From NCBI GenBank assembly GCA_001986395.2, contig MQVO02000014.1:558001-622000 (forward strand): 64,000 bases of DNA, read 5' to 3'. This DNA comes from Irpex lacteus (lineage: Eukaryota; Basidiomycota; Agaricomycetes; Polyporales; Irpicaceae). The notes below the pieces were generated by a model, which was not told the DNA's origin, did no database searches, and worked only from the letters and a program-made list of their open reading frames with translations. Shown piece by piece: positions 4,088 to 27,721 of this stretch (position 1 is its first letter; each line of letters begins with the position of its first letter). The position numbers and the translations under genes are program-made.

Positions 4088-5942
4088 CTGAGACGGGCTA
4101 GACGAACAGGAATATGCAAGTAGGAGAGAAAGAGACACCAGGACCTGCAATTGACCGCAACACCCGCAACCAAGGACAGGCGCCCGGGACGACCCCCTCG
4201 TTTGTGCTCGTTGTCCACTCGCTCGTGTGAAATTCACAGGTTCGCTGAGTTCTAATTCACAAGCGTCCATCTCGCCGAGCTTGAATTCGCTGATCCCTCG
4301 GCCAGCCGTTGCCTTATTCGGCCGAATCACATTCTCTGACAAAACGACCACGACCAGATGTTGCCACAAAAAACAGCCGTGTCGCTCTTGTCCACGGTTG
4401 CCCTACTCGAGGACGATTGTACCCCTCCCGACGAGAGTAAGGAGGGCGGACGAGGCGATGGGCGATTCTTATCTCCAGAGGCCACGACGTTCTCACACCC
4501 TGGCGAGACTGCCACGGGGGCTTCCGGCGGAGCATCACTTCTACAAATGAGATCTTTACTCGATCTGACTTGTGTATTTGCAATTGACCCTGTGCTGTTT
4601 GCTTACCAAATATCGAACCTTGCGTCGGAGCTCTAAATCGCGGCCGCAATTGGAATTTGGAAACACCCCCTTCGCCCTTCCTCCATCTGCCGCGTTCCTG
4701 CCTCAGCGTCGCTTACGTTTGTTTCACAACCGTCGCACACGAGCGCAAACCATTTCATTGTCGACAGCGTAGCTCGTATCCGCACACAGTATTCCTTATT
4801 AATGTGCCGTAAACCTACAAGTAAGCCATCCCATTTCCACCTTGAGGCTCTCACACATATTGATTCAATTCATTGAGGTGACGCCCACATCCTTCTAGAC
4901 CTGCTTGTTCCGCCCAAACATACTCGCCACACTCTGTCCATCTTCCATGCAAACTTTCCTGTTTAAGCTTCTAGAAACACCGCGGTCCTCTCCACATTTA
5001 GGCACGCTGATACACGGCCACATCGCCTTCAGGTGATTGGCCCATTCACTGTGGCTACCGCGACGTGCTGCAGTAGCGTGGTCGTCAGTTGCTACACTCC
5101 TAAGCTTATGACTGACAGCAGCTAGTTCGTGAATTACAGTTGTGGTGCGTACTTGCTTTATGTCGTAGCCCACGCGATGAATTTGCAATCCAACGGATGC
5201 CAGTGCAACTTGACTGCCATTGGACGTCACTACAGAATCCGGCCCTGGGCGACGTCCAAACCTTGTTCAGTTGGCCATTGCGTAACAACATATTGCTTGC
5301 GCTGGCTTGCATTGACGAGCGGTGAGCTCAACATCATACCTCCGCTACTTGTGACGACAGCGTCTGTCAAAAGGGAGTAAAGGGTTCGTAACTGCACAAT
5401 ACATGATCGAATACATGATCCTTCTTTCAATAAATAGATGCGTGCCACCAACAGTTGAGTAAGTAATTCCATTCAATCGTTGCATGGTATTTTGAATTGA
5501 CTCGCTCACAGACCACGTAACTCCGGGCATAAGACTGCTATTGCGTGTTCGTACATGGACGCCGCAATTTTGGAAACCTCCGCGTTACACCGTGGTAGTG
5601 GTTCGGCACGCGTGGATAACGCATTGCCGATGGAGAAGAAGGGTGACTAGTAACCGGCACATATCCATGAGCAATATCCCTGGGACGTGGACGTAGCCTA
5701 TTTCCGTTTATTATAACTACGGAAACAAGCCTGATTCATTTCGACGGTTCTTAATTTCAATGCGCGCTGCAACCTCTCTGCGAGGCTTTATACAATTCAG
5801 AGTAGATATCAAAATAAATACGTGACTATCAATAATTGAAAAGGTTCTATGATACACTTGCAATACTTCCTGGGGTTTTCTATAGCCAAAGTGTTCACAC
5901 TACAATTTTTCGAGAGAGGAAACAAAAAGTGTGTAACCGAAT
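4088..5942. other. Intergenic region upstream of the KDM5 gene
   Basis: About 1.85 kb between the KDM5 start codon and the tRNA. The first few hundred bases presumably hold the KDM5 promoter and leader. Only short, mutually contradictory open frames occur, with no recognisable domain, so I annotate no gene. Confidence 0.5.
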
Positions 5943-6041
5943 ACCCCCAGCGGGACTCGAACCCGCAACCTCCAGATCGCCTCATTGGGATGACTCCACA
6001 AAGGTAGAAGTCTGACGTCATAGCCATTAGACAATGAGGGC
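5943..6041 (-). tRNA. tRNA-Arg (anticodon UCU) with an intron of about 27 nt
   Basis: The minus strand folds as a cloverleaf. Acceptor arm GCCCTCA (6041-6035) pairs over all seven positions, with G-T wobbles, to TGGGGGT (5949-5943). The D arm is GTC-TAATGGCTAT-GAC. The anticodon stem TCAGA/TCTGG encloses a loop CTTCTA..A that reads anticodon TCT. The T arm is GCGGG-TTCGAGT-CCCGC. A 27-nt insert one base 3' of the anticodon is where eukaryotic tRNA introns sit, and removing it leaves 72 nt. It decodes AGA codons in cytosolic translation. The exact intron ends are inferred from the fold. Confidence 0.9.
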
Positions 6042-6124: not shown

Positions 6125-6648
6125 CACCTCGGGCAAAACGCAATCACTGCCGCTCGATGTTCCGCAGAACAATAATTACTGAGTATTCCTTTCTGACAGT
6201 AGCTAATTAGTCAATGATGGATACGTTATGTTACCTTTCGAGCCAAAATGTGCGCGTTTTTCTCCCCTCGAAAAGGTTCCCTTTGTACTAGACGAATCAT
6301 CATCGAAAAGTCGTCGATGAGGCATCCTTTTCGACACGCGCAAAGGTAACCTCACGGCACTTTTCCGGATCGGGCTGCATCAGATCGCTCCTCAAGGCTC
6401 CCGATCGCTCTTTGAGAGCTTGTTTACCTTTGTGCGTGTCGAAAAGGATGCCTCATCGACGACTTTTCAATGATGGTTCGCCAAGCTCTTTGTCTAACTT
6501 TTCTACGTCAGATTAATGCTCACAAAATAGCTAAGAAGGTAAGCTTTTTTGAGACGGAAAAGCCGTGTGGAAACGACTAATTAGGAATACTCAGGGATTA
6601 TTATTCTACGGAAATTCGCGCGCCTGTGATTGCGTTTTGCCCGAGGTG
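6125..6648. mobile_element. Palindromic MITE, PIF/Harbinger-like by its TTA target duplication
   Basis: A 524-bp foldback element without coding capacity. It begins CACCTCGGGCAAAACGCAAT and ends with the exact inverse. The terminal repeat is perfect for 23 bp, then continues imperfectly for about 100 bp. A second inverted pair lies inside: about 6288-6340 against 6427-6480, sharing TCGTCGATGAGGCATCCTTT. TTA flanks both ends (6122-6124 and 6649-6651), fitting the TWA target duplication of PIF/Harbinger elements. It lies about 80 bp from the 5' end of the tRNA. Non-autonomous; the family assignment rests only on the duplication and small size. Confidence 0.8.
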
Positions 6649-6971
6649 TTATGGTAGTCAGTACTAGGGCACTGGTAGTAAGTAGCCTGCAGGCTCGTAG
6701 ACGGTAGACTGAGTCCTTACTCGATAGAACCCTTTAAAGCACGAATAGAAAACAAATAGTTCTCCGACGCGTGGTGCTCACGACGAAGGATGGATATCTA
6801 CGTATACTCTTGTTTGGGGGCCGCAAGTCGATATCCATATATCATGAAATTTCATTAAGCCGCCGTGAAAGCCAGAATTCGTAAACATCGCATGCAAAGA
6901 GTCATATATCTCAACAATCAAGGCAGTTGCAGTCACGCAAAGCCGCTTCCATGTCCAACTCGCCTTGCCGA

Positions 6972-8761: not shown

Positions 8762-9707
8762 TTAAGCCTCCTCAGTCTCCTCAGCGGGCTTGTCGTCAGC
8801 CTGCTTGTCTGTATATATTGTCAGATATGATGTGGCAAAGGTGTAAATGATAAAACTAACCAGAATCCTGCATATCCGAGGTCCAGAGAGTAAGGTTGTC
8901 ACGGAGGAGTTGCATGATGAGGGTCGAGTCCTTGTAGCTCTCTTCTGAGAGGGTGTCGAGCTCAGCAATGGCATCGTCGAATGCCTGCTTGGCCAGGTGA
9001 CAAGCACGGTCTGGGCTGTTGAGGATCTCGTAGTAGAAGACGGAGAAGTTGAGCGCGAGACCGAGACGGATGGGGTGGGTAGGGGGAAGCTCGGTGACGG
9101 CAACGTCGGAGGCGGCCTTGTAGGCCTCGAGGGACTTGTCTGCGCTGTCCTTGCGCTTGTCGCCAGTGGCGAACTCAGCGAGGTAACGGTGGTAGTCACC
9201 CATCCTGCAAGATCAGAAAAAGTCGCATTTAGCGTCACGGCTATCACGTAAAATGCCAGCATTTACGTACATCTTGTGGTAGAAGACCTTGGACTCGCCA
9301 GAGGCAGCAGAAGGGATGAGGTGCTTGTCGAGGACGTCGAGGATATCCTCGCAGATCTTGGCGAGCTCGCTCTCAATCTTCTCCCGGTAGCCCTTGATCA
9401 TGGAGACCTGGGCCTCATTGCCCTTCGACTCCTCCTTCTGCTCGATGGACGAGACGATTCTCCAAGACGCACGGCGGGCACCAATGACGTTCTTGTAGGC
9501 AACGGAGAGCAAGTTACGCTCCTCAACGGTGAGCTCCTGGTCCGAGGAAGCAACACGCTTCATGTTCTCGACCATCTCTATATCAACCCGCCACTTCTGA
9601 ACATACATCCTTTGACACGTATAAGCCGAATTTCACCGACCTTCATAACGCTCAGCCTGCTCAGCGAGCTTGGCAAGGTAAACAGAGTCTTCACGCGATT
9701 GGGACAT
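8762..9707 (-). CDS. BMH1: 14-3-3 protein
   Basis: Phosphoserine/phosphothreonine-binding adaptor that acts as a dimer in the cytosol and nucleus. Four exons (9707-9641, 9577-9271, 9204-8861, 8808-8762) with consistent phases give 254 residues, the usual family length. Hallmarks are [20 protein letters not shown] in the third helix, [20 protein letters not shown] and [19 protein letters not shown] near the end, plus the typical acidic tail. [20 protein letters not shown] is the standard N-terminus and fixes the start. The first donor is GTCGGT, weaker than usual, but the joined sequence AERYEEMVENMK is canonical. Only one copy is in this window, so the BMH1 symbol is by homology. Confidence 0.97.
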
Positions 9708-11092
9708 CTGACAACGAACAAGTTAGTATTGACGCGTCATCGGTGGCAATGAAAACGCGTCTGAGCGTACCTTGACAGGGGTGGTTTAGGTGTTAAGGTG
9801 GGGGAAGTCTGTAACGCGTAAAACAGTGAGCTCAACGTGTCGAACAACGAGGGGGACGAAAAGCACTGACGTTAAAGTGACGAGTGGGGTGAAAGAGGGG
9901 GAGCGAGGCTGATGGTGGTAGTAGAAGAAAAGGATAGGATTTGGAGAATAAATGAGGAAATTAAATGTGAGCTGGGCAGAGGGTTCGTCACATCATGGGC
10001 AAAGGGCTGGTCACGTGCCAGTGATTTCCCACGCCATCTTGCCCCAGTCGTCAGGCGGGCCACGTCTCGATAAGGCAATGCTGTTCGCTTCCATCTGTTG
10101 CTCCCCGGCTCAATTGCCTACACACCATGGCGACAATTGTATAAGTAATTGCGACGGCTCACCCATGTCGACGGTGGCAGCCTAGACTTTCGCTCGCGCG
10201 ACATCCCGAGCTCCCTGTTTTTTGACCCGCCTCCAGTCGGCCTCCAGCGTCGCCCAGCCCGGCCAAGACGAACATTTGCCGCGGCATCATATGTTTCCGA
10301 CTGCCGAGATCCTATCTGTCAAGCCATTATCGTTTTTGTAAGGTTGGAGAATGAAACGCTTTCTATCCTTCCAGGCTGCAATAGAAGCCTGCTGGAAGCC
10401 CGACTACATCCATAAAGGCTTTGTCTGATGGAACACCATTCATGACAAGCAGTGACCTATGCGCAGTTTGTTGGAAAGACGCGATAGTGGACTTTCTGCA
10501 CTGCTACAGCGTCACACTTCTCCGCCTTTGTCCACCTCTTCACTTGTTCTGCCTAGCAGCCTTATCGTCATTTCGGGAGATCACTTTCAGATTACTCGCT
10601 CTATGAACAACACCGCTCAGATGATCAGTCGACGAGCAACGTTAACCTTGATCGCTGCGTCTGCTCTTGTACTACCACGCACATGTATAGTCAGTCCATT
10701 GAGCCCCTTGCCCAGGGTTACAGACAGGCGACCTTCTATCGATTCAAGTCATACAGTGCGGAGTCGGAGTCGTATGGCCATGCCAACGTGCACTGCGAGC
10801 TCCGTGTCGGGACCTTGTCTACATATGCATCAATCATCGATACGTCTTTCTGCTGTTCCAAAACCTCTCCTTGACACCTTCAAACGCTCTTGTTTTGCAT
10901 CGTTCAGCCCGTACGCGCTCCGTGCTATATGGCGGAGAAGAATTGATATCAGCCGCCCAAATACTCGTACTACGGGTACAGTAGCCTGAGTCTCCCAGAG
11001 GCAGACTAGAGAAGTTCAACCTTCGGTGCTCAGGATCCCGTGTCAGACGCTACAGGCAATCCTGAGACTCGGGAAGCGTTTACACAATATTA
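9708..11092. other. Intergenic, 14-3-3 promoter side up to the transposon nest
   Basis: The proximal part (about 9708-10080) is the 14-3-3 leader and promoter, with a purine-rich stretch on the plus strand. The rest contains only open frames of low-complexity composition without domains or plausible splicing. I see no gene. Confidence 0.5.
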
Positions 11093-11103
11093 CTGTCGTT
11101 TGC

Positions 11104-11238
11104 TAGTCTCGGAACCAGCCGTTTGGACCTGCCCGATTAGGAGGCGGAGTGCGAAAAAGACAAGAACGGGCGCGGTCCAAACGTCTGGTGTCTTTGGCAG
11201 AGAGGGGTGGCGATACGTCGTCACGTGCCGTATGCCAC
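11104..11238 (+). repeat. Left terminal inverted repeat of the MULE-type element
   Basis: Pairs in reverse orientation with 12976-13124. Long identical blocks include GGCGGAGTGCGAAAAAGAC and GAGGGGTGGCGATACGTCGT, with a few small insertions between them. Similarity stops just inside GTCACGTGCCGTA. Confidence 0.75.
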
Positions 11239-12975
11239 TGTACGCGACGCGACATTGCGCCGACGCTAGTTAGCAGCTGTATGCACAATGTCCCCTCGTA
11301 GTGTCTAATTCATGCTTCGTTTATGCCCTCTCTCCTCTTAATTCATTTATTCCCCAAGACATGCCTCTTAAACCGCGCGCAAAAGCTGCTGCCGCGAAGA
11401 AGTCTCAGCCTCTGAGGAAACAGCTCATAACCCTACTACTATCGTGTCTGCCGCTGTTGTTGCTCCTCGGGCTGAAGTATCTGGTACCATAGAGGGGTGC
11501 GAGATTAATCTTATCTCTATGTCTTCATCGCTCCGCGTCGCAAGAAAGGCCGCGAACGCTGTCGTACGCCATAGATGACCGCCCGACCTTCTCATAGCCT
11601 CTTCTTGTATATCCTGGCACGGGCTGCATCTTACAAGGGCGAAAGGAATGTTTGTTGCGATGAATGTCGATATCATTAACGTGTCGACGCTTGGTCAACG
11701 CGTGCGTAGGTGTATGTACAAGCAAAAGCGTGCGACGCGTTTCACGAACGCTGCAGCAATTCGGGCGCCTCAGTATTCCGATTTCCCAAATCGGGCTTTT
11801 TACTCGGTCTGTCCTCGCCCACTCATCACGTGATGTCGTTATATCCGCGGTTTCGCCGACGTCCCGCTCCATCCCGTGCGGTCCGCTCTCTCCGTCTCCC
11901 ACGACCTTGATGCGCACCCTTGCCTTACCCTCCGACGTTCCAAGCCTACGTATACGATGGAGAACTGATCTAGCTGCAGCAACATACTTATTGTACCCCG
12001 AGCCTACGTATACGAGCCGCCGGCTCTAAACAAGCCATGCTCCCGATTTATACAAGCTGGACTCACCTGTAGGTACATGTGTATAGTGTCGATGGCATTG
12101 ATGTACTCATACTACTGGTGTACCTATAGATGAGAAAGATGCTGCCAGGGCATGACTTAAGTAATGGGCCGGCACGCTGTGTCCGCGTAACCCAATGAGT
12201 CAGCCATGGCTATAACAACTTCGCAGTCGCAGTAAGTAGTACAAACTGCGCCGTTGCAAATTGTCTTCAGCCCCCAGACGCACCTCGAAGTTTGCTCTTG
12301 AGGCTGTCATCACCACTCAGGCAAGTCTCCGCCATATAAGTACCTGGTATCCTCTTCTGACATCGATCTTCCATACTCTGGGACTTGTGTTTGAAGTTGT
12401 AGACTAGTATATTGTCATTATTCACCCACATAGACCCGTGTACAGTGCTAGCACTGTAGATTATAGTCTTTCGAATCTTGAAGTTGATCTGCTTCGACGA
12501 GGGGCGCCGGGGAGACCGCCAGTACTAGTTACTAATTATTGTATTACTTAGTCCTTCTATTAATAATGAAGGCTATAGGTTGGAAAAAAAAACTTCTACG
12601 TTCACTGATGTTGTACGAAAGCCCCAGGGCCATATTTCTCAGCAGCGACGATTAGTTGTGTCAAATTGTCAATCGTGTCACGTCTCACAGATGGATGGTA
12701 CTAAGTAGTAAGTACTGCTCACACCTAGCCACGGAGATCGATATTCAACTTGGATACAGTAATGAGAATGCTGAAATTTCGCGCGCCCGACGCAACTGAG
12801 ACTCCTCGCTCCGCTCGTATACAGGTCGTAGCGAGTTAACATGTACAATATGTATGACGCCGACTACGAAACACAAGACCCTAAAAGCGTTACGCTACGT
12901 TATTCCCTCGAGTCGCGCGAGCAAAACGGGAAATCGGACAGAGGGCGCCAGCCTCTAGCCCACGTTTTAGAAAGC

Positions 12976-13124
12976 TATCTACGGCACGTGACGACGTATC
13001 GCCACCCCTCTGTGCCAAATGCACCAGACCTTCGGGCGGGTCCTCTGTTTCGTCTTTTTCGCACTCCGCCGCCCGAATAGGTAGGAGCCAACGGCGACCT
13101 CCGAAGGGCTGGCTTGCGAGACTA
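12976..13124 (-). repeat. Right terminal inverted repeat of the MULE-type element
   Basis: Inverse partner of 11104-11238. It carries extra short blocks relative to the left copy, indicating an old, diverged element. Its last base and the following two bases form the AGT used as the Plavaka target duplication. Confidence 0.75.
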
Positions 13125-13467
13125 GTCACTGCGGAACCCTGCCGATTTTCGGGGCAGGAAACACTCCAGATTGCGCTGAATCCAGAGGTTGATGTCTGAA
13201 TCACGAGCAAACGGGTGAGTTATCGGAGATCAGAATTCATTTCCTTTTCGGAAAGTTGTCAGCGCTGGAAACATCCGTACTTGTCGCCTTTTCGCATCTC
13301 GTTACTCTACGTTCTTGGACTCTTTCCTGCTTCGAGGTACTCTTTCTCCTCTGTGTAAACTACGCTCTGGGTTCTACTAGTAATCAAATCTTCGTCTCTG
13401 AATACCTCAGGAACACGATGGTCGACCTTAGGGCTTCAACCTCCCGGCTACCTCTTGTCCAACGTCC

Positions 13468-14355
13468 ATGGCCGCATCCCTTCTCACAAATATGCAGCAA
13501 CACCCTCGCGCGATATTGCTATGCGAGACGCAATCGGATGGGACCTGTGAGCAGGTGGTGGTGGTGAGCATAGATGCGGATGCGCCGTTAGTTTGCAGTC
13601 GTGTACTCCTGCGGCCGTGGATGCTCCATGCAAAGGCAAAGCACATAGTAAGCACAATTACTGTCAATATTTCTCTCCAGGTCGATGGCAAGTGCTCACT
13701 GACTACTGCAGAATGTTCAAGTAATCTCTGAGAGGTATCCGACACAGCCGCTTCCAGTACGCTGTGCGCCGCCATGCCCGTTATGCATGTGCACGAGGAC
13801 GTGTCTCCGTCTCCGTTGCTTGCATACGCAATTACCGTTAGACTACTGCTACCAGGTACGTAACTCTATTCCTGTTTGAGAGCTCATAGACCAACTATTC
13901 TCTGCAGCCCGAGCGGTGTGAAGAAATCCCCGTTCCCTTGAATAACTTTGGAATAGTGCGCAAGTACCAACTGGTATCGGAGGCCGATCAATGGGAAGGA
14001 GACATTGTATGTATCATTACCTTTGTCTTTGTATACAGTGATACTAACACAGCGGTATCAGGTTATCAAGCTGATTACAGAATCATTTGACGAAGAGGAT
14101 CTCGCGAAGTACTTTGATGCAGCACTCCGCACAGATGAAAGCCGGCTGCTTATTGGTGCTAGCCGTTTACGACGTCCAAAAACGGCACGTTCATTTCGGC
14201 CTAAACGGGAGTACACGCCTATGGAGTATGAGGATGTCGAGAGGGAGCCAAGCGAGTCGGACAAGGAGGAGATGAGGGTTCGGCGCATAAAGCTCAAAAC
14301 ACGTACTGCTAGCCCCCCTCGTCAACCCGCAAAGCGTCGTCCCTGTCGTTTCTAG
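13468..14355 (+). CDS. Plavaka accessory gene 1, cysteine-rich protein of unknown function
   Basis: Four exons (13468-13647, 13712-13855, 13908-14006, 14062-14355) joined at GTAAGC/GTACGT/GTATGT donors and CAG acceptors, all in phase 0, give 238 residues. Exon 2 encodes a Cys cluster (CAPPCPLCMCTRTCLRLRC) that could bind zinc. The C-terminus is acidic then strongly basic (RRIKLKTRTASPPRQPAKRR), suggesting nuclear or DNA contact. I do not recognise a family. It lies inside the transposon, upstream of the transposase and on the same strand, so a transposition-related role is inferred from position only. An upstream start cannot be excluded. Confidence 0.6.
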
Positions 14356-15077
14356 ACTCTGCTGTATCCTAGATGAGAAATCATGATGCTCTGGCAGTTT
14401 ATTTGCTCGCTACGTGAAGACTCAAGCTCATGAATGACGGTGAACTGGCGCCCGGCTGTTGGCTAGCAGGCTATGGATGTACCCTCTTGTCCACGTCTTC
14501 TCTGTGCTCTAGCTATCTTTTGTGGTCTTCCTTAATAGCATATCAACTCATTTAGTCATCCGCCTTGAGACCATGGGCTTCACCGCTGTCCAGGAAAATC
14601 CTCGATGACTGACTGACTATCAGCCACCATCTGCACACGATCACATGATCGACGCGCGTTGGTTTGCTCGTTTTCACACCACCGAGCTCACCTCTCAACC
14701 AGCCGTTTCATGGATCTTAACATAGTAATACCTTAATCTTTCCTAAGGTACGTACTTCCTATGCTTGTGTCAACTCCTCCCGACTGACCAGAAGTATTGG
14801 CAGCCACTCCTTACCACATCAACGGCGAGTATCATAGGCCCGTTGTCCCTGCCTAGAAGTACATCTGGTACGCCCTCACGTCCCAAGAACTGCAGTAGCT
14901 TGTCCACTTATAAGTACATGTCACAGAGTTTCATCCTCTCTACCAAGGTTCGCCATCAACAGAAGATAGATCAGATTGCAGTACCAGTTTGTCTTGGACG
15001 CGGTGCGTATTTCATTTTCTGCTCGTCTTCGCTGTCCCATTAATATCCTATTTTGCTCTCTTACTATAGAATATTCG

Positions 15078-18000
15078 ATGCCGAAGTCTTCTGCTCCGTG
15101 CTGGTGCAAAACCGCCGGGTGCGATGGTCTGCATGTCTCATACCGGCGCCGCAGAATGCATCGGGAACAGGACCTGCGGCGGAGGGCCCAACAGCCATAT
15201 AAACGACCAGATCCGAACTTGCTTAGTGTGGCACCGAATGAAGTCATGCCGCATGCTGTCACGGAACCGCTGCTTCCTTCCTGGCAACCCCCCATAGAGC
15301 CCTTCCCCGATCTTTCTCATTTTCCCTCGCCATCGTCGTCAAGCGCAGTCAAGCAGGAGATGCTGGATCATGGAACGATGTCGATGGCTGATCTTCATCT
15401 GGATGTTCCTCTACCATCCCTTCCGCCCGGGCTTCACAGCGGGGACATGCTTCAGGAGTGTGTGGATCACTTCGAGGTCCACAACGCCATCACGAGAACA
15501 AATGCGACCACACTCACCGCTACGGTTGCGCATTCTACCCCACCCTTGACACCTCTCGAGAAGCAGCTACAGCGACAATATGAACGGGAGATGGAGCACA
15601 TTCAAAGTCAAACTGAAGGCGTATCTATCTCTGGGCTACCGCCTTGTGACGGAGCTGTGGGCACAGGTTTGATTAATCGTACCACCACAACGTTTAACCA
15701 GTTTGTTCAATCATCTGGTAGGTAGCCGCTGATTAATCAGGTGGCAAGGCAGGGCATGGCAGGTAGGCTGTGGCTGACTAATCTGGACTGATGGGGGTGT
15801 ACCAGAATGGGTGGGACCATCAAATCATGGGCTCCTATTTTATCAAAAGCTGAAAAAGCGGCCACATCAAAAAAACAACAGTTTCTGATGCATCAAATGG
15901 CTAAAAGGCACATGCTTTCGCTTCAGATTGCCTAAAATGGTAATGGGGTGCTCTCACCGCCTTCCTGGGCGCTTGGGCGCTTATTTTGCCGTTTTACTCC
16001 TTTGGGATGGTGTCACATGACACAAACATATGCTGATGTCAGAAATAAAAATATGTTTTCTGAACCGGATTTTCACCAGGATTCCGAATCTAATCTCAGA
16101 ATGTCGATAGCTGCACTGGTTCAGGAGTTATTTGAGGAACATTGAATATATTTCGCATTTTTTGATTTTCCCAGGCTTTGATCAGCTTGGTATAGGGGTA
16201 GCAGTGGGGGTATGGCTTAGTAACTTCAGGATCATGATTCTATAATATATGGCCTGTGTCTATTAACTTTCTAGGTCACCAGAACATCATATCGCTTGGG
16301 AAAACATATAAATCAGACATATAATGTTTTGCTTCCCTATTCATGACATGGGGTATTATGAGCAGTTTGGGGTCTTGGATAGCTTTATTAATACTACTAT
16401 GATATGTCTGTAAAGGGGTTTTATGATTGCATCAATGTGCACTACTGTGTAAGGGATGTTCTCCTCCTCCCCTTGGTACCAAAAAATGCGCCCTATATAG
16501 GACTCTATACACATCCCCTTGCATATCTATTGCTTGCATCATTTACCCTATAGTATAAACATATATTATGGATACTTTTAAGGCTCAGAAACACGTCCTG
16601 AACCTTCTCAGAATGTTCCAAAGCGAAATTCATCGAAAAATACAATTATATTCACTTTACCCTCTCCTATATGTCTCCTAACGTGTTTCCCTTCAGGCAC
16701 AGCGCGTCAGAACGTGTCATAGTACTATATACACCCCCATAAATATTTTTAGGCCCGTCCCTCCACCCCTCACCCTCTCATCAGCTCAGAAATGTTGAAA
16801 AATGCGCAAAACAGCCAAATCTGACATAGATTTAACATATACTGCCTGCTACATAGCCTATAAATATCACGAAACGTGCTAATAGATACCTATGCACTTC
16901 TCTTACAAGCTCCAAAAGAGATCTCTCCAGTAGCATGACATACAGGTATGATATAGAAGGAATACAGCATAGGTGAGAAGTGAAGTCATTGCATTGTACA
17001 TGCACATACCTTCATCTATGCTTCTTAGCCTGTTTCTATATTATAGTGTCTCAAGCTATTGCTTAGGGGCCCAAGTATTGTCCTATATCTGTTTGAGAGC
17101 TATATTAAAGTATCATATCATTATTTTATAGCCCTCATGATGTGTCAAAGGATGTCAAATGTCACATATATGTTCAAAAACCTGTACAGAACGCATTTTT
17201 CAGCACTTATGAGCTGATGGAAGAATGAGGGGTGAGGAGGAGGGCCTACAAATATTTATGGGGGTGTATATAGTACAATGACACGTTATGACGCGCTGTG
17301 CCTGAAGTGAAACACGTTAGGAGACATATAGGAGAGGGTAAAGTGAATATAATTGTATTTTTCGATGAATTTCGCTTTGGAACATTCTGAGAAGGTTCAG
17401 GACGTGTTTCTGAGCCTTAAAAGTATCCATAATATATGTTTATACTATAGGGTAAATGATGCAAGCAATAGATATGCAAGGGGATGTGTATAGAGTCCTA
17501 TATAGGGCGCATTTTTTGGTACCAAGGGGAGGAGGAGAACATCCCTTACACAGTAGTGCACATTGATGCAATCATAAAACCCCTTTACAGACATATCATA
17601 GTAGTATTAATAAAGCTATCCAAGACCCCAAACTGCTCATAATACCCCATGTCATGAATAGGGAAGCAAAACATTATATGTCTGATTTATATGTTTTCCC
17701 AAGCGATATGATGTTCTGGTGACCTAGAAAGTTAATAGACACAGGCCATATATTATAGAATCATGATCCTGAAGTTACTAAGCCATACCCCCACTGCTAC
17801 CCCTATACCAAGCTGATCAAAGCCTGGGAAAATCAAAAAATGCGAAATATATTCAATGTTCCTCAAATAACTCCTGAACCAGTGCAGCTATCGACATTCT
17901 GAGATTAGATTCGGAATCCTGGTGAAAATCCGGTTCAGAAAACATATTTTTATTTCTGACATCAGCATATGTTTGTGTCATGTGACACCATCCCAAAGGA

Positions 18001-21000
18001 GTAAAACGGCAAAATAAGCGCCCAAGCGCCCAGGAAGGCGGTGAGAGCACCCCATTACCATTTTAGGCAATCTGAAGCGAAAGCATGTGCCTTTTAGCCA
18101 TTTGATGCATCAGAAACTGTTGTTTTTTTGATGTGGCCGCTTTTTCAGCTTTTGATAAAATAGGAGCCCATGATTTGATGGTCCCACCCATTCTGGTACA
18201 CCCCCATCAGTCCAGATTAGTCAGCCACAGCCTACCTGCCATGCCCTGCCTTGCCACCTGATTAATCAGCGGCTACCTACCAGATGATTGAACAAACTGG
18301 TTAAACGTTGTGGTGGTACGATTAATCAAACCTATGCCATAAGGTGTGTGACGACGATACCTTCTTACCTGCGATTCCCGTCCTTCCGGCGCCATCAGGT
18401 GAATGTTACGACGATTTGGCCGGTGACGATGAAGAGGACGAAAACGGTGATGATGCTGATTCAGAGCAGGAGATGCGAGAGCAGGGACAACGTACCATAT
18501 TGCCACTCCACGTTGCTCCTATCCTCGCTACAGACTGTGATGATCCAGATCCTTTCCACCGCCCTCAGCCACCTTATGCTTCGAACGATCTCGACAGCCT
18601 CCCACAGCACTTAGTGTGCATATACGCTATAGTCGCTTGGCTCCACCTCAACTTCCATCTCTCCCGTGTTGCCTGCAACGCCGTGCTGTGGGCCTTTGCT
18701 CTTGTTGTCTCAGCAATCTCCTCAACTGCGGCACTACCTTTCGTGACCCTCAAGTCCGCCAACCGTGCCCTAGGACTTGACACACTCCCTATCACTATAC
18801 TCAGTGTCTGTCCAGCTTGCAAGGAGGTGTACCCTGCGTCAGATAGCACTCCGGATGCATGCACAAAGTGTTCGGCCACTTTGTTCAAGACTTCGTCGAC
18901 TGCTCGTGGCACGCTTCGCACCTCTCGTGTGCCGCTGCTAAAATTCCCCACCATGTCAATTACTAGTCAACTAGAGGCGATGCTATCAACCCCCGGACTT
19001 GAAGAACTTCTTGACAGCTGGCGGCTCTCAACTCGGGAACCGCAGGTCTATCGCGATATCTTCGACGGCGCAATCACACGGAACCTTCTTGGCCCAGATG
19101 GTAAACGCTTCTTCGCCAATGACGGCCCGCACCATTCGCGAGGACCAGATGGTGAGCTCCGTATCGGACTAGCCTGGGGTGTCGACTGGTGAGTGCCAAG
19201 TTTATACCTCATAACTTGACACGAGGGTAGTTGACTGATATTAATCTCGCAGGTTTTCTTATCTTCGCTCAAACATCGCACCATCTCATTCTTCTTGCCC
19301 GACGTCCTTCTCAATCGTGAATTTACCTCCCGAGTATCGATATCGTACCGCCAATCTCTTGCTCACAGGCATCCTTCCGGGACCTGGCGAACAGACTGGA
19401 GATCAGATCCAACGATTCATTCGCCCGTTTATTAATGAGTTGATCCGCTTGTGGCGAGATGGTCTGCGTATAGTTACTCCATCGTATCCTCAAGGTATGC
19501 AACTTGTTGTGGTTTGCCTAACATACAGAACTGAAAGCTATTTTATTTAGGCCGGCTCGTGCGTGTCATCCTTGTCGCTGTTGTCTGTGATAAGCCTGCC
19601 GCCCACAAGATTGCCGGATTCGGTTCACACTCACACACGATGTTTTGCACGAAGTGCTGGATCACGACTGAGCATAAGAACACTGCTCGTGCATTTGAAG
19701 CGAACGGTACGCATTTTATGATCTCCGTTACCTATATATCAGTACTTATCTTGTCTGGCATAGCGTTTCAAGCACGCACCAATGCCGAACACCGTCGACA
19801 ATGTGGAGAGTATGCAGCATTGAAGACCGAAGCAGCACGCAAAGCCTATACAAAAGCGCATGCTGTTCGCTTTACCCAGCTAGCACGGCTACCCTACTTC
19901 GACATTGTGCGACAAGTGGTGGTTGATCCAATGCATAATCTATACCTCGGTGAATACATATTTTGCTTGCGCAGAGATGTCACATCCTCACCGAATTCTG
20001 ATCATACAGGCTTGGTCAAAACTCATTTCTATCATATTTGGGTTCAGACAGATGTGCTTCGTGAGAAGCATGAACTTAGGGTTCTTCATGAGCTTCTTGC
20101 AGATGTTCGTGATACTGTTGTTGTACTTGTTCAACTACTGATTAGGTTATCTAGTTCTCTCTTCCATCTGCGGCTGGAAAGCTGCCAAAGGACATTGGCA
20201 TCCCTGCCGGAGGTTCCCTCACCGCAGACCAATGGAAGATACTTGCCATATTCCATGCACCCATAATCGTGAGTCATATTAACAGTGATACTTATGTGTT
20301 AACTCATCGTCTTGACAGATTCCGCAGTTATGGCGGCGGTGTATGCCAGATGATGGAGAGCAGTGTCGTTTGAACCGCATGGCGCGCATAGAGAGAGAAG
20401 AGAAGAAGAAGACGGATGCGAAAGCTGCTGCAAAAGCAAAGCGTGCTGCTAAGGTGGCATCGAAGAAGCCTAAGAAGCCTAGTGCCCGTTCGAGTAACAA
20501 GCAGCCTGCTGTCATCACTCAGAGCGAACCAGAATTACAAGAACAAGCAGATGCAGCACCAACCGCTTCTTTCACGGAGCCTGCAACGGTAAGAGTTTGA
20601 TTTGTATCACGTCAGATATCACGGCTCAAGTTCCGCAGCCAATTCTATCTACTTCCTCACCAATCGACGCACAGCCAGATGTTTCTCTTGCAGGCGGGTC
20701 TGTTGCTGATAGCGCTTGCAACCTCCATCCAGATGATCCAGCCAATTTCCTCAAGCTCTCTGAGGCGTTGCGTCTTTTGGCTCAATATGAACTCACGGAA
20801 TCAGATATCACTACAGCAGACAGTCTCTTGCGAGAATACTGTACAGAACTTATCACGGTACGTGACCAACTTATACGAGACTTGACATGTTTCCGCATCT
20901 GATGTTAGAAACAGCTATATGGCAAGAACTGCATTCGGCCCAATCATCACTACGCAACTCACACCAGCGAGTTTGTACGAGATTTCGGCCCATTGCACAC

Positions 21001-22097
21001 TTTTTGGAGCTTCCTTTTCGAACGGCTGAATAAGGTACTCAAGGCGTACAATACCAACAACCATGGTGGAGGAGGCGAGCTGGAAACAACCTTCTTTACA
21101 GAGTTTCACCGAACGTGTGCCTCTGCACGAGTAGTAAGCTGTTTTATCCGACTGCAATTTATATACTTGACGTCAATTCTAACATGCATCTAGACTTACC
21201 GTATGCATTCAGCTGCGGAGAGTTCTATAACGAGTCGATTAGCTACCGTGATGCTCAACGCCACAAACGAAGAACGTGGTACATTAGCTAACCTGAGTAG
21301 CTTGTCGGCATGGATGTCTGATTTGGAGAAGGAGCAAGATACTGGTAAGCTTGTCTTTACTTGTAACTATTTACACAGCATTAAGACTTCCCACAGCCAG
21401 CTCGACTGATGCGTATGCATTGTCAAAACGATCTAAGACAATTGATATGCCCAGCGAGTTATATAGAGCGGTGCTAGATCACTTCAAGCACAGGTACCCT
21501 CAATGGCATGTACACTCACGTTTTGAGCGTCGCAGGTTCACAGACAGTTTGCCGTTAACTCAAACCGTAATCAGTTTTGATTACGTCGACCTTAACGGAC
21601 AGAGGTTCTATGCCGCCAACCAATCCGGAAATATGACCAATTCGGTGGTACTCGCTCACGTTCACTGGTCAAACGTACCCACAGCCGGGCGACTACTGGA
21701 TATTTTCCAGTTCCAGCAGGATCTACAGTCGCCGCCAATGTGGCTGGCCCGTGTACGTTGGTTCAAGCAGTGGAATGGACCGTGTGAAGCTATATGGAAG
21801 ACATGGTATGTGATTCTAATCAGACGAGCACTACGGTACTGAATCTATCACTGGTTTCGCAGCCAACGTGTTCAGCTCTGGTATCTGAACGAGTTCTTAG
21901 TGCCGAGCTCAGAATCATGGGTAGATGAGATCATCGAAGTCACGCAAATCTACGGACTTCTTGCACTTCAAACGGTGACAGTTGGTGATCAGGATTTGAA
22001 GGTGTGGGCGACCATTCCATTTAGTTCGGTACGCTTTCAGGAGATAGTTGCGAATAACGCTAACATGATCTTCATATAGGGTGGACGAAGAATGTAA
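15078..22097 (+). CDS. Plavaka tnp2-family transposase, interrupted by a 2.7 kb insertion
   Basis: DDE-type transposase of the basidiomycete Plavaka group. The first exon encodes a Cys motif (CWCKTAGCDG) and a Pro/Ser-rich segment. After the insertion come a zinc-ribbon-like pair CPAC..CTKC (18808-18890), then LAWGVDWFSYLRSN, CDKPAAHKIAGFGSHSH with FCTKC, and the family hallmark VVVDPMHNLYLG (about 19920-19950). C-terminal exons include DFGPLHTFWSFLFERLNK and run to TAA at 22095-22097. About ten 45-60 nt introns are visible. The insertion at 15652-18346 breaks the gene, and translation entering it stops at 15723-15725 after 215 codons. No other disabling change was seen, so inactivation looks recent. 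Transposase of a mobile element, not a host gene. Confidence 0.88.
15666..16808 (+). repeat. Left arm of the palindromic element
   Basis: Inverse of 17190-18332. The blocks I compared in the outer part are identical. Single substitutions appear near the inner end (for example around 16691-16728), then pairing breaks up into a central loop of about 380 bp. Confidence 0.88.
17190..18332 (-). repeat. Right arm of the palindromic element
   Basis: Inverse partner of the left arm. The central unpaired spacer (about 16809-17189) shows no coding signal. Confidence 0.88.
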
Positions 22098-22137
22098 TTC
22101 ACACCTGCCATCATATACATTTCTGCTAAACTACACT

Positions 22138-24226
22138 CTACATCGCATTTTGCTCCTCTTGCTCGATCTCAGCGTCCTCAGGCTCATCCTCTGACGGGAC
22201 ATCCCTCAACAACTCCTGCTGCGCAGCACTAAGAAGACTCACGTCGGGCTTCCATTCCGCCCAAAACTGCGGTGCCGGTTTTGTCTCGAGCTGATCTCCG
22301 GTCTTCTCCAAGTACCTTTCCAGCCACGTCTTTCGCACAGTCCCATCAGGTGGTGGAACATTTGGAGGGCGGTCGTTGGCGTGCTTCCAAGCTAAGTAGA
22401 AGTTTTTGATCGCTTGGGGCTGCCTTGCTCGTCCCCTCGAAGTCTTCTGACGTTTCGTTACAGGCTCCTGAGGGTCACCTTCCCTGTTAGCCTCTGTTTG
22501 CTTGAACTCCGAGAGATCCTCGGTTTCAGCGATCCGGTCGAGATACCATATCAAGGTAATGAACTGACGCAAGTCCCAGAATAGTAAGTGGCTAGCAGCA
22601 CCTGTACAACGTCTTCTCACTGACCTTCTTATTTCTCCAGAAGCGATGACGAGTTCCAGTTCCCTTACGGCCGGAACCTTGCTCCGTGCGACGTTTTGTA
22701 CTATCTGGACTCCCGTTTCCAGATATGTAGTCCGGTGCGCTCGACATATACTCTTCACAAAGCATTGTCTCAATACCCTCCATGCCTTTATACTTGCTGG
22801 CCCATAGTGCAGCAACTAATCGCTTCAACAGTTTCTAAACCACGTTCAGCATTCGCGAAGATGTTCAAGTTGCTACTGATGGATGTGAGGTGAGTACTCA
22901 CTGTAGCACGGCGCCGGTATTCCTTTGCTCGTAGTATATTGGCCTGACGTTTTACTCTTCCCTCTGGAGTCGATTCTAACTTCCATTGTCCCTGCACGTA
23001 CTGATGATAGGCTTTAGCGATGTCAGAAATAATACTGAAGTTGTTGAAGGCGGTGTCCTCAATTTTTCCTGGCTTAGTCTGACGTTCAACCTACAAAACG
23101 ATCAGTAAGTATTTAGTACGTAACTACTAGATACGAGGCGTTTGAACTAACCTTTTCGTTATCATAGACACGCTGTGCCAGCTCCTGACAGAACTTTCGG
23201 TTAACCGCCTTTTTGACCGTCGCGTCGTAGTCGGGCATCAGCTCAGGCGTTGCAACTGATGTGCCGCCCTCTGCTGCTGTCTTGATAGCATCAACAAGGT
23301 CCACAAGTCCCCCGATGTCTCCTCCAGGAAGATCGAGCATCTTCCAGTACATCTCGTGAGTTCTCTCCTAGAGTGGCAGGTCAGAGTCTCACGAGACTGA
23401 CATATGATTAGATGTGACGTACTTTGGTCATTGGGTAGTCGTTTGCCTTTGCGCCGCCGTTCTTCTTCTTGTGAGTACCCGCAGAGTCGATACTCTCTGA
23501 CAGATCATCAACTATGATCTGAAGCTTGTTTAGGGCCTCGACTTGCGTATCTATCTGAGCACGCAAGGCGGTCTGCTCAGTCAAGCTAGCCCGCAGGGCC
23601 AATCGGTCACGAAGCAGAAGTTCAAGTAGCTGCTCGTGGCTTGTGAGGGAATCAAGAACGACGCCTATGGCACCATATGGATCGGCGATATGTGTCGAGG
23701 CCGCTCGAACAGACTCCGGCAAACGAACAAGCTGAGGCGAGTGATGGCTGGCCTGAGTGATATCTAGGGTGTGCAGCGGAGTGGCCGTAGTAAATTGGTG
23801 CAAAGCTGGGATGGGAGTGCCCACCTCCGGACGGCGAGCAGAGATCGCAACTGGAGGAGTGCTGGGATTGGTGGGGGCAGTCATGGAACTGAAGGGATGT
23901 GAAGGCTGGGCCAGCCGATGGGAATGGTTTGTGGCCGGCGTGCTGGCGTTGTGGCTTCCATAGGTACCAGGGATCACCGTAAACGGGTAGGCTGCGGTAG
24001 GATTATGCGGAGAGGGTGGTGGGTTTGTGGGAAATCCGGCCTGCGGGATGCTTGGATACGATGCACCTGAAGGGTGAGGACTCGAGGAAGCAGGGTAGTA
24101 GGTGCGGCCATCATTGACACTTCCCTGAAGAGGAATATTGGCACGAGGCGCAGAAGAACTGAAGTCAAGGGACGGGTTCGCGTCACCATATAGGGGAGTT
24201 GGGCCCTGCGATGGCCCTTGTTGCAT
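22138..24226 (-). CDS. Plavaka accessory gene 2, Pro/Ser-rich coiled-coil protein
   Basis: Spliced gene convergent with the transposase; the two stop codons are 40 bp apart. The first three exons are 24226-23423, 23367-23152 and 23090-22902, all phase 0. Further exons lie at about 22840-22610 and toward 22138. The N-terminal 190 residues are Pro/Ser/Thr-rich. A predicted coiled coil (LLLRDRLALRASLTEQTALR onward) follows. The middle is basic and helical (RQANILRAKEYRRRAT) and the tail is very acidic (EDEPEDAEIEQEEQNAM). I recognise no catalytic domain. A transposase partner or terminal-repeat-binding role, like TnpA in plant CACTA elements, is an inference from position. The last intron is unresolved. 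Confidence 0.6.
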
Positions 24227-25303
24227 TTTGCTGTATTATGTGGTCTCAGCTGCGTACTCTCATTACAGAATACAGTTTGTGGCCGGGTGGCTGGCCGAGC
24301 TGTACAGTAGCGGAAGCAAAATACAGGCCACAGCGATTATTTATTATCAATTTTGTGGATTTACTGGTGTGACTATCATGAGTGTTTTCGGGGTCTTCTC
24401 TGAAAGTATTTGGCACTGGAAATACTATTTCTACTCCCAAAAGGCTCAGGATAGCTGTGCGCTTTGGCTCAATATACTCTCTGAAAACTTTGAGTTTCTG
24501 TCTCGCAATACATCAGGATCTGTGGCCTCCTGGGAATGTTTCGGGATCGAGATTGCATAGCAATTCGCATGCGATAATACTCCGATCACTGCTGTATCTG
24601 GAAGGTATCTGGCGCTGAAAATTCGCAAGGTTCCGCAGTGAGTCGTTTGCATAACGAAATGGAATTGCAACGTTTTCATCCAGGTCCCGCGTCTAGCCTC
24701 GGGCGTTCTATCCCCACCTGAAAGGTCCTCGTGGACTACTTTTGCGTCATCAGAGGGCGAGCGCGCCCCGCGTTGCGAGAGTATGTCGCGTAAAGCTTCT
24801 TCGACTGCTATGAGTAAGCTGCTTTTTCGACAGTTATAATGTAATACTCTATGCTCATTATAAATTCAAGTTTATCAGTGCAATAGGCAGAAGTGACTAT
24901 CCGAGGATGTCTCCTGAAGGTGAAAGCTCTCGGCGTTTGTAGTCTCCCCATCAATGATGTGGGGGACTTCACGTGCCGCATGATTATGAAGCGCCTGATG
25001 GAAGACCGAGTCGAGAAAGTTGCAATTCCATTTTGTTTTGCAAACGACAGTAACTTCCAAGTTGAATCCCCTTATGACGTTGAGTAGGACATATTAGTCG
25101 GCTATTTAGCAGGCCTCTGACGTACCTGTCTATACATCTTCGAAGCCGCCGGATCTGAGGGCTAACGTAAATAGACTCACAATACATACCAGAGCCACAA
25201 TATTTCATACAAGGGAAACGCCTCGGACCCTACACATACATATCTACAGTCCTACCCCACCGTCGGCTTGATCTAATCTGTCACCACAAGCCCAACCTAC
25301 TCC

Positions 25304-27721
25304 TCACGCCTCCCTTGCGAACCTCAAGTGCACCTTCCTCTCACCCTCCTCCTCTCGTCCATGATGCCCATGATGCGTCGACGCACTCCCATTCGTGGGC
25401 TTGAAATCCTTCAGCCAGCTTTTCATAGACTTTAACGCCTGCTGCTGCACAGCGAGCACCGTCGAGTCGACCTGTCCGTTCGTGGTGCTGAGGTCGGAGC
25501 AGTGGAAGCCGTCGGAGATGCCGATGGGCTCTGAGGAGGTGCTGTGTGCGGGCGAGGAGTTCGCGGAGGTTGTCGCTTCTCTCCATGGGTCACCTACAAT
25601 ACAATAATTGAGAGCAGTTAGATATACGTAGTTAGAGAGTGTGCGGTTTCTGGGTAGCCCGGAAAGAGCATATGTGGAAGGCTAGTAGGGAAGTTTGAAA
25701 GAAAAGAAACTCACGGTGTCCGTTGGCGAAGAACAGCCTGTCAACTTTCATATTCCATCCATGATACGCGGAATTAATCCCATTCACGTTCGGCTGCGGT
25801 GTCGGGTCACTTCCGAACGCGCCAGGGAACCAGTAGTTGCATTGTCTCTATAAAGTATACATGGTAACCCAGGTCAATTCAGTTCATCCATGTATAGATA
25901 ACTGAACGAACAACAGACCTCGTCGTATGCGGGTTGTACGAGACGGGTGACGAGCGTTGGTACGTTGGTAGGTGCGCCTTCTTGGTAGAACCCTACTTCG
26001 TTGCAACTACAGTATCAATGGAAGTGCGAGTTAGTGCCAGTGATCTTCGACCACCGGATCCGAGTTACGAGTGTGAGACGTACACAATCCATGTCCATGA
26101 ACGGCCGTCGTTGTCGACGGAGATATCTGTGAAGTACTCTTGGTTGGGGTCGTACGAGCCTAGACATGTCCTACACAGACCGAAGTTAGTTAGCACTAGT
26201 CCAAACTTCGCTAAACTTCTCATGCGTGAATTCACTCACTCGGTATTTTGACCTCCACAGACTTCATCCACACACGCATATCAGCAAAATCCAAAATACA
26301 CGAATCTTGACAATGAGAAGACAACATACGTGATCTCAGGTAGGTAGTGTTCCAGTACGAACCCCAGGCTTGCAAAGCGTGCGTCAAGCCCCACCCAGAC
26401 GCAGACGCGGCTTGCCCGTTCTTCACCTCGAGTGCGTCGCAGAACTTGAAGAACCCGCCTTCGGTGCCCGTTGCAGGCGACAGCGACTGCCAGTCCCACA
26501 GGTTGTTACGAACTATGCCATACCAAAGTCAACATATCGTTCACGGTATCCACAGCATATCTGTAGTAGAAGAACTCACGAGCACCAGCAATATCATCCA
26601 AATGCGTCAAGTTCGACAACCCCCAGTTAGCCTTGAGCGCGTCGATCTGGGCCTTCGTTCCGCTCGTGAAGACCTGGTCGACGTGAGAGATGACGGCCTC
26701 GACGTCCGCGGAGCAGTTCTTCGGCATGTACTCCCGGATGGGCTCGAAGTAACCCCAGAAGTCTCTATTTATCCGATGACAATGCATATATGATGGTTCG
26801 GTCAGTAAATGGTCATGTCGTCATCTGCTGAAAGCATGGAAGGACGTACGTGATGGCTTCTACTACTGCAGAAGAAGCGTACCCCGCGCGGAACAAGTTC
26901 GGCTTGCTACAAGATTAAACACCGTTTATTAGCCTTCACGCATATACTCGCTCCACCCAAACATCCTTGAAAACACCAGACGCACTTGACCATCGTCCAC
27001 CCAGTAAGCGCACCCGAATAACTTCCCCCGAGCAAAATCCACGGATTGTTCACATTCGGCTTCACGTTGTCTCCGCCGGGCATCGCCAGCTTCACATTGT
27101 TGGCAAAGTAGTCGAGATCGTCGATGGCCTGCTGGATGGTGTGGAAGCGGAGGCTCTTCACGCTGAGGTCGGGATACGGGTTCGAGGTGCCGTAGAAACG
27201 GTGCTCGAGGACGATGGTGGCGCCGTTTTGTTGTTGGGCGATTTGTCCGTTGATGGTTCTGTTGGTTAGGTAGCCTGTGTAACCTGGAGTAGAATGTGTT
27301 AGTATTCAAAGCGATAATCGTGGTTTTCGTCTTACCATCGGCGTTGGACTCTCCAGGCGTGAAGAGGATGATGGGGCCACCTAATTTGGTGTATGCATTG
27401 TCAACGTTTGCACAATCGTAACAGAACGCGCAACATACCCTCTTCATACCACTCCCAAGTGTGCCAGTACCTTTGCTTGAAAGTGCCAAGCGAAGGGTTG
27501 GTGTGATCAATAAGCTGGTCAAAATAATACGTCGTGTTCAGTGGTGGGAGTGCAGCACCCGAAACTGTCGTGAGAGGTGTATCGTCTGCTACGATCTTCG
27601 GGACCGCAGGCGAGGGTGGGATATTCCCGTGTGCACGACCATCCGGAAGCCTAGCGTGCACAGAAAGCACCGGCAAAGCCAGCAAGACGGCCAATGACGT
27701 CTTCACCATCGAAGTCAACAT
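25304..27721 (-). CDS. Secreted serine carboxypeptidase, peptidase family S28
   Basis: Prolyl-carboxypeptidase-like serine hydrolase, probably secreted. The N-terminus MVKTSLAVLLALPVLSVHA, preceded by MLTS, is a signal peptide. The N-terminal substrate region reads YYFDQLIDHTNPSLGTFKQR. The nucleophile elbow is ILLGGSYSGALTGW (about 27010). The Asp (HRDPWREAT) and His (ISDGFHCSDL) of the triad lie in the C-terminal exons (about 25580-25480). Potential N-glycosylation sites occur (NTTYYF, NLTHL). At least nine exons with introns of about 50-70 nt. It ends KVHLRFAREA. The true start may be the second Met, four codons in. It likely hydrolyses Pro-Xaa bonds at acidic pH, judged by family. Confidence 0.92.

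Follow-up and report, generated by a model that had tools for sequence, protein, structure and literature searches.

Architecture of the nest

We analysed a 64,000-nucleotide stretch of the Irpex lacteus genome, referred to here as the window (C262:558001-622000), and searched the genome (44.3 Mb in 317 contigs) for further copies of the transposable elements within it. Five nested DNA transposons lie in the window, all inside positions 11093-25050, and the junctions of the four layers with target duplications were read directly and checked by script. The outermost is a miniature inverted-repeat transposable element (MITE), which contains a short derivative of an element coding for a helicase and a DUF6589 protein. 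A Helitron2-like element and an EnSpm/CACTA element are inserted in this derivative and at its right edge, respectively, and a palindromic foldback element interrupts the EnSpm transposase gene. The features are as follows (window coordinates, strand where applicable, and basis).

9213-9632 (-): host gene left of the nest, 14-3-3; Pfam-type match
11091-11092: left TA duplication; read in sequence
11093-11103: left tip of the MITE, CTGTCGTTTGC; read in sequence
11095-11103: left 9-bp duplication, GTCGTTTGC; script check
11104-11775 (+): 831-bp derivative, left part (TAGTCTCG end and start of the helicase gene); copy comparison
11776-12965 (+): Helitron2-like non-autonomous element, 1,190 bp; gap in other copies, end features
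12966-13124 (+): 831-bp derivative, right part (end CGAGACTA); copy comparison
13124-13126: left AGT duplication; script check
13127-15651 (+): EnSpm/CACTA element, left part (CACTGCGG end); end comparison
13432-14355 (+): further open frame in the EnSpm element; no Pfam match over cut-off
14970-15651 (+): transposase open frame left of the palindrome; open reading frame
15645-15651: left TGTGACG duplication; read in sequence
15652-18346 (+): palindromic foldback element, 2,695 bp, ends GAGC..GGTG; copy comparison
15660-16806 (+): left arm of the palindrome; self-comparison
16807-17191 (+): spacer of the palindrome, 385 bp; copy comparison
17192-18338 (-): right arm of the palindrome; self-comparison
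18347-18353: right TGTGACG duplication; read in sequence
18354-24640 (+): EnSpm/CACTA element, right part (CCGCAGTG end); end comparison
18354-22098 (+): Tnp2-type transposase gene right of the palindrome; 13 exons, 1,027 codons, no stop
22138-24235 (-): second open frames, convergent to the transposase; no Pfam match over cut-off
24641-24643: right AGT duplication; script check
24642-24650: right 9-bp duplication, GTCGTTTGC; script check
24651-25050: remainder of the MITE including its right inverted end; inverted-repeat comparison
25051-25052: right TA duplication; read in sequence
26907-27305 (-): host gene right of the nest, Peptidase_S28; Pfam-type match

The duplications are placed exactly at the element ends, and the same ends and duplication lengths recur in other genomic copies; therefore, the nest is beyond chance. 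Joining the flanks restores in turn an unbroken terminal repeat of the MITE, an intact GAGACTA end with the 9-bp target directly after it, and an open transposase frame. The A of AGT is the final base of the 9-bp element, so the EnSpm element is the younger of the two. An initial annotation of this locus had described four nested elements with target duplications, restored by excision and lying in an unambiguous order between two host genes. The junctions of all four levels, their order (outermost element, 9-bp element, 3-bp element, palindrome) and the restored sequences stand, as do the host genes on both sides, which are not necessarily the nearest ones. That annotation missed the fifth element, whose order relative to the EnSpm insertion cannot be read. 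We consider it very probable that five DNA transposons were inserted successively at this single site between host genes, in the layers and by the mechanism set out below.

The left flank gave no empty allele in the genome, as 9500-11092 matches only itself over its full length. About 60 bp immediately left of the nest (10989-11049) has 27 other genomic matches at 80-91% and is possibly a short interspersed repeat. Farther away, a tRNA gene (50.3 bits) lies at 5942-6041 on the minus strand.

The helicase/DUF6589 element

The second layer had been annotated as a 2.0-kb MULE-type element. Its 9-bp duplication is genuine; however, the 2.0 kb consists of 831 bp of its own sequence and the later 1,190-bp insertion. 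Other copies with both ends were found in C32, C135 and C58, and all three are flanked by 9-bp duplications (CAGCTCCTG, CTGAAGCCG and ACCTTCCAA, respectively). Counts from our genome searches are lower bounds, since 40 of 51 candidates were scored for this element and 40 of 137 for the palindrome. Duplications of 9 bp with varied sequence were present in 6/6 copies of helicase/DUF6589 elements that were read, and the inverted ends of the second layer match over 56 nt at 91% and 53 nt at 74%. In C58 the relative extends over 6,653 bp and has the ends TAGTCTCG..CGAGACTA; the window copy aligns to its positions 1-449 and 6148-6265 at 84% and to 6341-6653 at 89%. Because only those segments match, the window copy is a deletion derivative.

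The C58 element carries two convergent genes encoding a helicase and a DUF6589 protein. The helicase matches DEAD (37.5 bits, cut-off 26), and its Helicase_C score of 16.2 is under the cut-off of 23.5; "RecQ-like" is accordingly used as a descriptive label, the domain evidence being the DEAD match. One DUF6589 exon alone scored 15.3 bits (cut-off 27), and the C58 exons reached 138.8 and 142.6 bits in a later scan. All 45 DUF6589 homologues match PF20231, and none of them matches another transposase model, MULE included, at E 0.01. A helicase of this type lies within 10 kb at 31 of the 36 DUF6589 loci in this genome. Subtelomeric RecQ helicases (PMC4522978) were considered as an explanation for the helicase and set aside, since the loci pair with DUF6589.

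Predicted models of DUF6589 proteins have an RNase H-like core resembling DDE transposases, with a near-invariant D-D-E. In DDE transposases of the hAT/P/MuDR/Kolobok/Dada group, a C/DxxH motif follows the second D (PMC9587614). At the expected place, DUF6589 proteins have an invariant GxxH (G509 and H512, 45/45 homologues), in which G replaces C or D. A PDB sequence search with the DUF6589 alignment returned one match only (E 0.35), NCBIfam returned none, and DUF6589 is not named in the literature searched. No eukaryotic MULE structure was among the PDB matches, an absence that carries no weight. On the strength of these models, the DUF6589 protein is likely the DDE transposase of the second layer. 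For two transposon proteins of this genome, the closest named relatives include ones from Irpex rosettiformis, Cytidiella melzeri and Trametopsis cervina. They point to a polypore of the Irpicaceae, probably a wood-rotting fungus, although proteins of this kind say little about their host.

MULE target duplications are about 8-11 bp, with long inverted ends. The 9-bp duplication and the long inverted ends of the second layer suit a MULE; nevertheless, we rejected this class because the full-length relative encodes a DEAD helicase and a DUF6589 protein, with no MULE domain, and the MULE model is absent from 45/45 DUF6589 homologues. A new superfamily was our first choice, set back after two articles (PMC9587614 and PMC10799480) pointed to KolobokH and AcademH. 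KolobokH, which occurs only in fungi, resembles the second layer in combining a RecQ helicase with a DDE transposase (PMC9587614). However, its helicase is downstream in the transposase, whereas the C58 copy has a separate helicase gene on the opposite strand. KolobokH was excluded since Kolobok duplicates TTAA (PMC9587614), as against 9 bp here, with a sequence that varies between copies. For AcademH, a helicase and a low copy number in Basidiomycota are described (PMC10799480), and the second layer is alike in being a low-copy basidiomycete DNA transposon with a helicase. By this analogy, it probably belongs to the AcademH lineage. The proposal that DUF6589 is the AcademH transposase is ours.

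The EnSpm/CACTA element

The third layer had been annotated as Plavaka. The 13-exon, 1,027-codon transposase model, whose splice sites were assigned by hand, matches Transposase_21/Tnp2 (PF02992) at 47.6 bits (cut-off 28.6), whereas the Plavaka match (PF18759) reaches 22.6 bits, under the cut-off of 26.3. Across the palindrome insertion site the frame reads ..GLPPCD/DDTFLPA.., with the slash at the site. The element ends are CACTG..CAGTG with a 3-bp AGT duplication. CAC..GTG ends and a 3-bp duplication form the EnSpm pattern, and PlavakaA and PlavakaB end in TGT..ACA and CATCA..TGATG, neither of which fits (PMC12730594). By its Pfam match, ends and duplication, the third layer is classified as an EnSpm/CACTA element with a Tnp2-type transposase, and Plavaka was rejected on the same points. 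The genome has 107 Plavaka profile matches, none on the window's contig. A version of the nest made of a MITE, a MULE, a Plavaka element and a generic palindromic element, in four insertions, would draw on the long inverted ends, the 9-bp duplication and the weak Plavaka match. Given the helicase/DUF6589 pair, the Tnp2 score and the presence of a fifth insertion, we judge it very unlikely.

The right part of the EnSpm element is single-copy at the DNA level apart from one relative in C40 (64-67%), its 15-base end was found in the genome only at the two ends of the window element, and the best protein relative of the transposase is 59% identical. The EnSpm end CACTGCGGAACCCT is present in L072 (C40:323200-323450), about 17 kb from the sole DNA-level transposase relative (C40:340031-342081), and the two probably belong to a related element. 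The minus-strand frames at 22138-24235 could encode a DNA-binding partner protein.

The Helitron2-like element and the outermost MITE

Positions 11776-12965 are missing from the C32, C135 and C58 copies of the 9-bp element, and because these three copies lack it, the segment is a separate, later insertion. It begins TTCCGATTTCCCAAATCGGG and finishes CCCACGT, with a 5' hairpin (CCGATTT-CCC-AAATCGG) and an inverted copy of TCCGATTTCCC that begins 38 bp from the 3' end. Its left end was read at 11 other places and its right end at 10; no target duplication of at least 3 bp was seen among the 8 copies for which the two ends were both read. The border is uncertain by 1-2 bases because T adjoins both ends. 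The lack of a duplication, the 5' hairpin and the asymmetric inverted repeat resemble those of Helitron2/FoHeli, and the 38 bp from the repeat to the 3' end compares with 38-51 bp in FoHeli1 and 2; in contrast, the FoHeli 3' end is ATATTTT (PMC5148889). No Rep/helicase was seen in the 1.2-kb window copy, at which no search for them was aimed. The Helitron2-like end also adjoins palindrome-family sequence at two loci 27 kb apart, L055 (C58:2797400-2801400) and L086 (C58:2827680), which suggests a Helitron inserted in a palindrome and afterwards split by rearrangement.

The MITE spans 11093-25050 between its TA duplications, has 411 bp of its own, and its inverted ends agree in 32 of their first 36 bases. 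One complete copy was found in the genome, and its end occurs also at C262:668805 and C6:114312. At these places (L010, C262:667305-670339; L011, C6:112812-115846), which have similar surroundings, the 35-bp end preceded by TA is present once each, and no second MITE end was found within 1.5 kb; they may represent a longer relative of the MITE.

The palindromic foldback family

The palindrome in the transposase gene with its TGTGACG duplication was confirmed, and 12 other palindromes also have 7-bp duplications. The arms of the window copy are 1,147 nt each and 98.5% identical. We sampled 20 further loci (L040-L059); both core arms aligned in 18 of them, giving 19 two-armed copies with the window, and L058 and L059, with one core arm aligned, were excluded from the arm statistics. 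End-based analyses used 15 of the 19 copies, excluding L052-L055. In 13 copies, including that of the window, GAGC..GGTG ends are flanked by perfect 7-bp duplications; the ends are also present in L046 and L047, where the duplications are swapped, L052-L054 lack a 7-bp duplication, and L055 is doubtful. The spacer is 383-389 bp in 18/19 two-armed copies and 373 bp in L051, and the arm/spacer junction is common to all. The spacer is oriented one way in 9/15 copies and the other way in 6/15, and is also opposite between L041 and L042 despite identical outer 185 bp.

L046 and L047, separated by about 8 kb, are oppositely oriented and have CAAGTGC and AATAAAG exchanged. In Galileo, a Drosophila foldback element of the P superfamily, swapped duplications were taken as proof of inversion by ectopic recombination (PMC2775673), and by analogy we regard those of L046/L047 as the mark of an inversion. 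The family shares with Galileo long inverted arms, 7-bp duplications, exchange between copies and swapped duplications at an inversion (PMC2775673, PMC3573991). It differs in being fungal, almost wholly palindromic and unlike at its two ends (GAGC and CACC). Likened thus by structure, the palindrome is considered a multicopy Galileo-like foldback family.

A search for an autonomous partner with the outer 177-179 bp of two of the four end classes recovered only palindrome copies and one lone fragment per class. KDZ was considered as a candidate mover, and no link was drawn to its 49 matches in the genome. Four of the 14 listed short arm relatives (about 430 bp) were fetched, and all lie within a longer dispersed repeat. 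In these (L089-L092, in C185, C296, C257 and C6), the outer 437 bp of the palindrome core is present at 85-87%, and the end of L089 looks by eye like a tRNA 3' part followed by T's.

Probable homogenisation of the palindrome arms

Core arm identity averages 99.4% within a copy (98.4-99.9) and 90.5% between copies (86.6-100). Of 38 arms, 26 are closest to their own partner, the remaining 12 all being in three near-identical copy pairs, and none of 2,000 permutations reached the observed value. In the 15 copies with known ends, arms differ at 4 of 10,874 aligned positions 176-900 bp from the terminus; elsewhere there are 269 differences in the outer 100 bp, 17 at 101-175 bp and 84 at 901-1,140 bp, by the spacer. 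Because the differences concentrate near the termini and the spacer, the arms appear homogenised save at their edges. Outer differences are much alike within each end class, and the tips are unlike (GAGC and CACC) in 15/15 copies. Several inner differences recur across copies, one column doing so in 10/15 copies and with the same polarity in 9 of these, while polarity is not constant overall; the window copy has seven private differences within 120 bp of the spacer. Our interpretation is that the arms convert one another and that selection maintains one end of each kind.

The main rival is an artefact of assembly or polishing, in which one arm was copied onto the other and the arms of the living genome differ. 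It gains from a point that counts against homogenisation, namely that differences are nearly confined to the neighbourhood of unlike sequence (mostly no more than about 120 bp from the spacer, and near the termini), a reach like that of short reads. On the other hand, the 362,815 bases of the window and 97 loci (overlaps included) contain no N, so the assembly is gap-free and probably long-read. Class I copies have no arm differences 21-700 bp inward, even where flank-anchored reads would resolve them, several spacer-adjacent differences recur in different copies, and arm recombination is indicated independently by the spacer flips and the swapped duplications. We regard the artefact as unlikely. 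Near-identical arms within each copy would also follow if every palindrome arose by a fresh inverted duplication, its arms being young and conversion not needed. That origin seems highly implausible, as spacer and arm/spacer junction are the same throughout the 19 two-armed copies, for which a single origin is simpler, and some spacer-adjacent differences are common to several copies. A conceivable but doubtful reading, which departs from ours on lineage, makes DUF6589 the DDE transposase of a helicase-bearing lineage separate from AcademH/KolobokH, and the palindromes an unclassified kind of foldback element whose tips are kept different by selection and whose arm bodies are kept alike by conversion.

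Proposed course of events and implications

We propose a series of insertions based on this layering. The 411-bp TA-duplicating MITE would have arrived first, and the 831-bp non-autonomous helicase/DUF6589 derivative would then have entered it, duplicating 9 bp. In either order, the Helitron2-like element would have inserted at 11775/12966 without a duplication and the EnSpm/CACTA element at the right edge of the derivative with a 3-bp duplication. Last, the palindromic foldback element would have entered the EnSpm transposase gene, duplicating 7 bp. For the four duplication-bearing layers we presume cut-and-paste transposition with staggered cleavage of the target, and for the Helitron2-like layer rolling-circle transfer. 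A transposase acting in trans and needing two unlike ends would move the palindromes, and arm-to-arm gene conversion with crossing-over would keep their arms identical and flip the spacer.

Nesting of transposons is in itself commonplace. Five readable insertions at one site fix most relative ages of five transposon families; of greater value than the nesting is what the layers turn out to be, above all the assignment of DUF6589 and the homogenisation of the arms. DUF6589, a Pfam family without an assigned function, is placed in a mobile unit of two genes and probably acts as an enzyme, and proteins of mushroom-forming fungi now called "unknown" could be renamed. With the palindromes, two questions become testable: by what means foldback elements with long arms keep these alike, and how frequently such elements invert chromosome segments.

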